A stretch of DNA of 44,491 nucleotides from Arenibacter nanhaiticus (GTDB taxonomy: Bacteria; Bacteroidota; Bacteroidia; Flavobacteriales; Flavobacteriaceae). This document shows positions 15,578 to 39,733 of the stretch, one piece after another. The position numbers were made by a program, and so were the translations under genes. The number at the start of each line of letters is the position of its first letter. Within the stretch, counting starts at the first letter, position 1. The notes below the pieces were generated by a model. That model ran no database searches. It worked only from the letters and a program-made list of their open reading frames with translations, and was not told the origin of the DNA. The stretch covers positions 1 through 44,491 of the forward strand of contig NZ_FQYX01000031.1 in assembly GCF_900141935.1 (NCBI RefSeq). The letters are read 5' to 3'.

Positions 15578-15664
15578 TTTGGGCGTTCCCTCCTTCGTCG
15601 GGCGGGCCCTTGGCTATATCCCTTGCGCCGCTGCGGGGATGCCGCCGCGCTCCCTAACGCGGAA
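15578..15664 (+). repeat. 87-nt GC-rich interspersed repeat, copy A
   Basis: First of three equally long copies in this window. About 60 of 87 bases are G or C, against an AT-rich background. GCGTT (repeat positions 6-10) can pair with AACGC (79-83). Inside, GGC (35-37) plus ATCCC (41-45) pairs with GGGAT (59-63) plus GCC (64-66), leaving a TAT bulge. It differs from copy B at 5 positions and from copy C at 7, without indels. It sits between two leftward genes. Confidence 0.85.
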
Positions 15665-24281: not shown

Positions 24282-24749
24282 CTTTTCTATTTTGATTCTT
24301 AAATATAATGAATAAGGAGTCATTAAGATGTTTTCTTTGTGCTATAGATATTGTCTCATTAGTATTTCTAGTGCTCATTTTTCCCAATAAACTTCCTTCT
24401 CACCAGCTTTTTGGGATGGATCCCTTTGCTGCTTCCTTTTTCCAATTGCCATAGCACATCAACCCTACTATTTTACGCGTTAGGGACCGCGGCGGCATCC
24501 CCGCAGCGCAGCAAGGGATATAGCCAAGGCCCCGCCCGACGAAGGAGGGAACGCCCAAAGTAGTATCCCAATGGGCTATATAAATTGTCATGGCCACACC
24601 TTTATTAAAAGCTTCGCCCCTATTAGCCGTCCTCTATTATTAAGTATCTGCTTCTAGCAAAACATCTCATAATTTCAGCGAATAGGAATGCGCTTTTCTC
24701 AAAAAAATCCCATAACTTTAGTTACCCCTGTCCTTTAATCAGCGTTTTT
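24282..24749. other. Divergent intergenic stretch with repeat copy B
   Basis: 468 bp between the leftward membrane relic and the rightward exonuclease gene. Apart from the 87-nt repeat at 24473-24559, nothing is recognised. A 65-codon open frame at 24400-24597 on the minus strand is created by the GC-rich repeat and is not counted as a gene. Confidence 0.5.
24473..24559 (-). repeat. 87-nt GC-rich interspersed repeat, copy B
   Basis: Reverse complement orientation relative to copies A and C, with the same length and the same stem partners. It differs from copy A at 5 positions and from C at 8. It lies in the divergent region 190 bp before the exonuclease ATG. Confidence 0.85.
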
Positions 24750-39426: not shown

Positions 39427-39513
39427 TTTGGGCGTTCCCTCCTACGTCGGTCGGGCTCTTGGCTATATCCCTTGCTTCGCTGCGGGGATGCCGCCGCCAT
39501 CCCTAACGCGGAA
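39427..39513 (+). repeat. 87-nt GC-rich interspersed repeat, copy C
   Basis: Same orientation and exact length as copy A. The closing stem GCGTT/AACGC and inner stem ATCCC/GGGAT are unchanged. Substitutions against A are at repeat positions 18, 25, 31, 50, 51, 72 and 73, so the main stems are spared. Confidence 0.85.
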
Positions 39514-39682
39514 TAATGACAGCATCTACAAGTATATCCAGTAGTTAAGATAGCAATAGGATTGGACAGCCCTATTTAGAAATACGTATTATTAAAATGC
39601 ACCCTAGGTGTATGGATGCCATTTGATATAAGGAGCTAAGAAAAGAGTACATGCCCTACAACGGATCCAGCTTCTTATCAAG

Positions 39683-39733
39683 ACACATCAAAAAAAATAG
39701 CGGGGCTTGGCCCCGCTATTTTTTTTGATGTGT
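39683..39733. terminator. Bidirectional intrinsic terminator, perfect 23-bp stem
   Basis: Left arm 39683-39705 and right arm 39711-39733 are perfect complements, with loop CTTGG. TAGCGGGG/CCCCGCTA is the GC core, extended by A8/T8 on both flanks, so either strand yields a GC hairpin with an eight-U tract. It ends 12 bp behind the QueE stop and serves the leftward gene at least. Confidence 0.9.

Follow-up and report, generated by a model that had tools for sequence, protein, structure and literature searches.

A GC-rich intergenic repeat of Arenibacter nanhaiticus, related to Flavo-1 (RF01705), that may be mobile structured DNA

The REP/BIME elements of RAYT (TnpA_REP) transposases are extragenic and structured, have high and variable copy numbers, form inverted pairs of two types and lack target duplications; bacterial MITEs are short, non-coding, intergenic and present in many copies. 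A REP is a palindrome of 20-40 nt, according to the part of PMC3733652 available to us, and the accessible part of PMC6006769 describes TnpA_REP genes of subclass 2.6 in Bacteroidetes, with atypical flanking structures that have copies elsewhere in the genome. Flavo-1 is presented in the available portion of PMC2864571 as a probable, non-cis-regulatory RNA, and PMC9029176, in the portion at hand, ranks it among the most abundant bacterial sRNAs with no function given. Transcriptomics found its matches indistinctly sense and antisense to transcripts, many of them outside transcripts, with no consistent strand (from the accessible text of PMC9723704). Among open-licence papers we found none that calls Flavo-1 a mobile repeat. 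The family described here is a dispersed, extragenic, structured repeat that occurs in inverted pairs, as REP/BIME elements do, but its element is 78-95 nt long and branched. The reading we favour, with some reserve, is that it is a non-autonomous, REP/BIME-like mobile DNA repeat rather than an RNA gene.

The window, by which we mean the whole 44,491-nt stretch analysed, is contig C73 of the 4.36-Mb source genome (G000). An earlier note had pointed to three equal, GC-rich, intergenic repeats in AT-rich surroundings (copies A, B and C; Table 1), and that description holds. Coordinates and the length of 87 nt were verified; the copies differ by five (A-B), seven (A-C) and eight (B-C) substitutions with zero indels, and both the GCGTT/AACGC outer arms and the ATCCC/GGGAT inner arms are invariant across all three. 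Their G+C content is 69.0, 66.7 and 63.2% (A, B and C), against 39.6% for the window and 35-42% for the flanks (300+300 nt). Among the window repeats listed they are the longest (87-93 nt at 91-92%); none of the others shown exceeds 36 nt. The absence of a flanking transposase was likewise borne out: when nine window ORFs adjacent to the copies or in their vicinity were scanned with Pfam, zero transposase families emerged, the hits being to Na/H exchanger, amidohydrolase, histidine kinase, exonuclease with GIY-YIG, radical SAM, methyltransferase and S9 peptidase, with two ORFs matching no family. What stays constant is a core of 78 nt, GCGTT...AACGC, preceded by TTTGG, which leaves the final 4 nt of each 87-mer outside the constant part. 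Across 99 copies of the two types distinguished below, the two G at -2/-1 are kept in 99 and 98, and the three T in 87-92; the first base 3' of the core is A in 52 and G in 44, and the sequence beyond it is variable. The neighbourhood of copy A is conserved in the congener G012, the other congeners having too little conservation there for an empty-site comparison. A perfect 24-nt inverted repeat with a 3-nt loop (window 39683-39733), terminator-like and with A/T-rich inner arm parts, lies 170 nt behind copy C.

Table 1. Coordinates of the three window repeats and of the proposed structural parts of copy A
Feature	Positions	Strand	Remarks
Copy A, type I	15578-15664	+	78-nt core 15583-15660, 5' TTTGG; shared with congener G012
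Copy B, type I	24473-24559	-	core 24477-24554
Copy C, type I	39427-39513	+	core 39432-39509
Copy C, sub-threshold Flavo-1 match	39445-39518	-	25.0 bits against a cut-off of 42
Copy A, P1 5' arm GCGTT (outer helix)	15583-15587	+	constant in aligned copies; selection pattern contained the arm
Copy A, P1 3' arm AACGC (outer helix)	15656-15660	+	constant in aligned copies; selection pattern contained the arm
Copy A, P3 5' arm	15604-15609	+	two innermost pairs (columns 28-70, 29-69) co-vary between copies and orthologues
Copy A, P3 3' arm	15649-15654	+	partner of 15604-15609
Copy A, apical helix 5' arm (TATCCCTTGC)	15617-15626	+	
Copy A, hypervariable 3-nt loop	15627-15629	+	14 distinct triplets among 91 copies
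Copy A, apical helix 3' arm (GCGGGGATG)	15633-15641	+	

The three copies belong to a large family. The pattern GCGTTCCCT-N45-65-CCCTAACGC has 147 exact matches in G000, of which the first places were listed, and its reversed control has none; the number is far above chance. A related element adjoins some of these type I copies; the 3' pattern of this type II element is matched exactly at 40 places in G000. Type II shares the ends of type I and carries a long T6/A6 apical arm; the tip of this arm is different in almost all copies, with the pairing largely kept. Searched with the type II model, type I elements score E 1.1e-8 to 1.1e-16, and type II elements score E 3.5e-6 to 4.8e-12 with the type I model. 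Since each model recovers the other type at full length, the two types are homologous.

It is through type II that the connection to Flavo-1 appears. Four type II elements of G000 exceed the RF01705 cut-off of 42 bits (54.4, 54.1, 52.0 and 42.4), on the opposite strand. Type I stays below it: the whole window has zero matches at the RF01705 gathering threshold, copies A and B give no match at E<=10, copy C gives the sub-threshold match in Table 1, and another type I copy (L101) reaches 30.5 bits. RF01705 was detected in 40 of 60 relatives, above the cut-off in 36, and in none of 14 controls. Counts per genome are 51 in G000 (E<=0.001; 65 candidates scored), 55 in G012, 4-10 in the other 16 congeners and 0 to 32 in the remaining relatives. 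From these model and sequence comparisons, the window repeats are assigned to type I, a GC-rich subfamily that is a relative of Rfam Flavo-1. Their likeness to Flavo-1 has two parts, the passing scores of type II and the homology that the model searches show between the two types. They differ from it in being GC-rich, with a short apical helix, a hypervariable 3-nt loop and sub-cut-off scores, in folding better on the opposite strand, and in behaving like a mobile repeat. The earlier note had held that novelty would fall if a genome search gave these three copies alone or if they matched a named Rfam family: many genome copies exist, but the relation to Flavo-1 lowers the novelty.

The proposed fold was taken from the RNA minimum-energy structure of copy B and then tested on alignments of type I (A1, 39 of 81 distinct sequences, from 40 random draws with L118 omitted) and type II (A2, all 29). 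In the model an outer helix P1 (GCGTT/AACGC) would enclose P2 (CCC/GGG), P3 (GGG.CC/GG.CCC), a weak P4 and an apical helix (TATCCCTTGC/GCGGGGATG). The constancy of the ends is partly due to selection, since copies were picked by patterns containing both ends. In type I, 95.9% of cells pair across the 39 sequences; P4 is weak, its pair 32-66 being unpaired in 12 of them. The REP of a RAYT would have a GTAG- or CGTC-like tetranucleotide at the foot of a short palindrome; here CGTC is seen in all three window copies, but inside the P2 loop, and by eye in just 2 of 29 type II sequences.

The earlier note had held that a lack of compensatory changes in a larger alignment would weaken the RNA idea. 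Such changes are present: both sides are changed in 12 type I cells against 2.9 in shuffles (reached by 0 of 500), and type II covariation is 0.094 against 0.046 shuffled (0 of 500; slid versions <=0.070), values whose significance is overstated by the shuffling of related sequences. The type I covariation score on its own is not significant, being reached by 71 of 500 shuffles. When 15 type I elements of G000 are set against their G012 orthologues, there are 64 differences, mostly in the loop (columns 47-49, 18) and in columns 28, 29, 69 and 70 (18); both sides are changed at 28/70 in five pairs and at 29/69 in two, and several of these double changes keep or yield standard pairs (L006, L100, L101). 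Gene conversion from another copy could also give rise to paired double changes. Copies differ by 4.3 per 80 between orthologues and by 6.2 between paralogues, so they are not fully homogenised. Minimum free energies are no better than those of shuffles (z 0.01 to 0.93 for DNA, -0.82 to 0.44 for RNA), and RNAalifold, unaided, predicted not P1 but other base pairs at the foot, with a covariation term near zero (-0.27 and +0.22 kcal/mol). The support for the fold is comparative and the energies are uninformative.

Type I multiplied in one lineage. The type I covariance model R2 has at least 117 matches in each of G000 and G012 and 2-8 in the 16 other congeners searched, which points to a burst in that lineage; a match was found in 27 of 40 relatives. 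Of 123 G000 copies compared for presence in G012, 16 sites could be located, and the element is in both genomes at 15 of them, the remaining one (L130) being ambiguous; no clear absence in G012 was seen among the 16, a point against the mobile reading. Much of the burst therefore predates the split of the two. When the models were run on 788 kb of G012, all 47 listed rows of each search spanned the whole model, at least one element being listed twice among the 47 because the stretches overlap. Two copies from other congeners (L135, L136) share one neighbourhood, by inspection beside an ATP-synthase-epsilon-like gene. L083 and L084, 14 kb apart on contig C47 of G000, have similar 5' flanks (84 nt at 92%), pointing to a local duplication; they are the sole such pair among the type I copies examined.

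Gain or loss can be followed in a second genus, represented by G028 (32 Flavo-1 matches) and G053 (9). Four G028 elements in two stretches were compared: three are absent at the orthologous G053 place, and the fourth is unjudgeable. The gaps at the three empty sites are about 50 nt in G053 against 300 in G028, 60 against 530, and 71 against 195. At the first, a terminator-like hairpin stands behind the upstream gene in both genomes, and the G028 element starts right after its T-run. The absence in G053 could alternatively be a loss. Target-site duplications were not found (direct-repeat z -0.95 to 1.55). Several G028 copies (L329-L339) have a Flavo-1 apical arm with nested palindromes, for example CAGGCTGAGCCTGTCGAAGCCTG and GGCGGGAGCTTCGCTCCCGCC.

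The foremost alternative, in line with Rfam, is a structured RNA: a transcribed sRNA, or a 3'-UTR or intercistronic element of stability or processing. The compensatory changes speak for it, and so does a strand-specific excess: on the GCGTTCCC strand G-T cells outnumber A-C cells by 112 to 5 for type I and by 34 to 15 for type II, so that this strand folds better than Rfam's. The same excess counts against it in that the favoured strand is opposite to the one Rfam assigns. As to placement, which in this respect favours mobile DNA, 90 of the 94 copies examined in type I and 27 of the 29 in type II are clear of simple ORFs, and the others overlap ORFs of 99-109 aa; the intergenic position given in the earlier note is that of most copies examined. 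With a crude ORF caller, the 72 type I copies that have two neighbours comprise 32 in convergent, 34 in co-directional and 6 in divergent contexts, and 47 of the 72 have a gene 3' end on the element's 5' side, which favours an RNA. By inspection, a Flavo-1 copy stands in two genera (L143, L146) just before the start of a gene that we take to be SufS-like. A strongly kept fold could, moreover, reflect a selected function rather than mobility. Against an RNA stand the jumps in copy number between lineages within one genus and the lack of a consistent transcript strand in the accessible text of PMC9723704. Some elements would also sit behind a terminator: a strong hairpin lies just upstream of 6 of 16 G028 elements, against 6% of control stretches (whole-set p 0.13), with no such enrichment in G000 (7 of 94, control 12%) or in other genera (1 of 10 copies). 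On balance we consider a structured RNA unlikely.

The flanks, studied in 123 copies that form part of the genome total (94 type I, 29 type II), are asymmetric. Modules shared with other copies occur within 100 nt in 30 of 121 3' flanks (>=30 nt) and in 2 of 123 5' flanks, these two being one pair (Fisher p 1.7e-8). An identical 218-nt interior directly follows L033 (type I) and L109 (type II), and recurs behind L123 (type II; 210 nt at 99.5%). A contig end lies within 1.5 kb on the 3' side of 8 of 30 type II loci and on the 5' side of none. Because 5' flanks are nearly all unique, while shared modules, interiors and contig ends lie 3', the 5' side looks like the outside of a unit and the 3' side like its inside. 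Type I and type II also face each other. A type I partner lies within 1.2 kb in 10 of 30 type II loci (8 of 29 usable loci by pattern, plus L113 and L124 by model), where about 0.6 would be expected from type I density (Poisson 1e-9); all ten pairs are convergent and the other three arrangements were unseen. In 761 kb of G012, 4 of 12 type II elements have a convergent type I partner. These pairs and the shared 3' modules could reflect the longer intergenic DNA on the 3' side (medians 224 and 442 nt against 148 and 127 nt), where other repeats gather.

Such an architecture would also result from a MITE or composite transposon that a DDE transposase moves, the elements being its ends or remnants and the cargo lying between the convergent types. 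Convergent I/II units have inverted ends of about 13 bp (TTTGGGCGTTCCC), as bacterial MITEs might; the shared interiors fit, and contig ends on the 3' side alone are expected of a multicopy interior. One interior, between the convergent elements of L120 (554-1500; contig C36 of G000, about 280 kb), contains genes for a HigB toxin (PF09907) and for an HTH_3 protein, to judge from their families a toxin-antitoxin-like pair that may be cargo. Bacterial MITEs differ from the present family in the target duplication, which was not found here, and in the fold, which is branched here and more elaborate than an inverted end requires. No parent transposon was found. No transposase was recognised in six interiors, two of whose ORFs were scanned with Pfam; the longer interiors run into contig breaks. 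In 20 of 30 type II loci, furthermore, there is no type I partner within 1.2 kb, and since type I numbers 147 copies, most of them must be single. We judge this explanation distinctly improbable.

A retroposon, in which an RNA with a 3' A-run or a degenerate 7-nt tail is copied back into DNA, is very improbable. It is suggested by the 3' flanks of A-class type I copies, which open with at least five A in 20 of 54 cases, exactly seven in ten of these. This A-run was also considered as a terminator T-tract and rejected, there being no hairpin enrichment behind it (p 0.53). Degenerate 7-nt-like words (AACAAT, AGCAAT and others), which a retroposon could likewise account for, occur 3' of G-class type I and type II copies at 1.15 and 1.45 per 60 nt, the rate further away being 0.16; for A-class copies it is 0.33, often with an A-run instead. 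Similar tracts seen by eye behind Flavo-1 in other families (L144, L147) also occur at an element-free site, which tells against such an origin, as do the lack of truncated copies among the G012 model matches listed and of target-site duplications. Integron attC sites end in the reverse of GTT...AAC, and the present ends read GTT...AAC, so this candidate was rejected.

The mover expected of REP-like DNA was sought among Y1 transposases. The earlier note had offered non-autonomous elements or a structured RNA/REP-like repeat, to be checked by looking for a RAYT gene; high copy number, intergenic placement, structure and transposase-free neighbours bear it out as a description, and the REP/RAYT link is unsupported. 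A single Y1_Tnp gene was found in G000, in a search that left out eleven small contigs reading as N, where a further gene would be missed. Its motif, YIKNQEEHH (the Y-x-x-x-Q-x-x-H-H kind), fits subclass 1.2, not 2.6, as described in the available part of PMC6006769, and the element is absent from its flanks. Short similar sequences of another kind, AGATTCATC...GAGGACTT, bracket this gene (L061 1404-1447 and 1901-1930, contig C31). Four relatives with 13-23 Flavo-1 copies have no Y1 match, one of these genomes being 80% complete. Because the G000 flanks lack the element and Flavo-1-rich relatives lack a Y1 match, the RAYT hypothesis is unsupported; here the family departs from REP/BIME, as no RAYT gene flanked by the element was found and the element occurs in genomes without a Y1 match.

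Nor did wider scans, of 31 Y1 loci of the genus (out of 48 matches) and 20 from other genera (out of 30), reveal a cognate RAYT. In the genus the element was found in five stretches: L179, L193 and L194 are one orthologous locus, L165 lies more than 4 kb from the Y1 gene, and L170 has the element at 0.56 kb on one side. In the other genera, Flavo-1 at cut-off occurred in 0 of the 20 loci. Coordinates in six congeners had placed a RAYT about 1 kb from Flavo-1, a candidate rejected when the sequences read proved to be one locus whose RAYT has its own AGACCTGCAAGGTTT repeats. In G014 (L179), G003 (L193; a seventh congener) and G015 (L194) the order is element, membrane-protein gene (presumably of EI24/CysZ type), RAYT; G009, G011, G007 and G005 were treated as the same locus from coordinates alone. 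The RAYT-like gene of L179, L193 and L194 (NHYH, YINTNP) is preceded by a AGACCTGCAAGGTTT-AAAACCTTGTAGGTCT palindrome array, likely the cognate REP of that RAYT, and a further difference from the structures of subclass 2.6, for all that phylum, atypical structure and dispersed copies are shared. In G052 an Acido-Lenti-1 RNA (RF01687; L365 1875-1920; 39.4 bits, cut-off 37) adjoins a Y1 match (1501-1839) and may represent a REP belonging to this transposase instead of an sRNA. Replication-strand bias is not clear either (leading:lagging 19:13 for type I, 5:7 for type II), which counts against an IS200-like mechanism, as that might show one. That none of these genes qualifies as the mover counts against the mobile reading, though a mover may have been lost, or be hidden.

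The reading as a mobile DNA repeat rests on (i) high copy number and a lineage burst; (ii) full-length copies with a covarying fold; (iii) empty sites in a congener; (iv) intergenic preference; and (v) convergent pairs with unique 5' and shared 3' flanks. We propose that the single strand GCGTTCCC...AACGC would fold while the DNA is single-stranded, that an enzyme acting in trans would recognise the folded strand, and that the copy would be joined into a new intergenic, T-rich site without target duplication. More speculatively, and less likely than not, Flavo-1 might not be an sRNA family but belong to a new class of composite repeat, whose structured ends, turned outward, it would form: unique sequence 5', shared modules and small cargo 3', two end types that face each other, and spread by a folded single strand without a Y1 transposase.

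What is probably new here is a type I variant of a known family, together with the reinterpretation of Flavo-1 as a mobile structured DNA repeat. If that is correct, the annotation of Flavo-1 as an sRNA must change, and the strand puzzle of the F. psychrophilum transcriptome, as set out in the accessible part of PMC9723704, would receive a simple answer. Flavobacteriia would gain a REP/BIME-like system whose mover can be sought, and the burst in two congeners offers a direct place to seek it.
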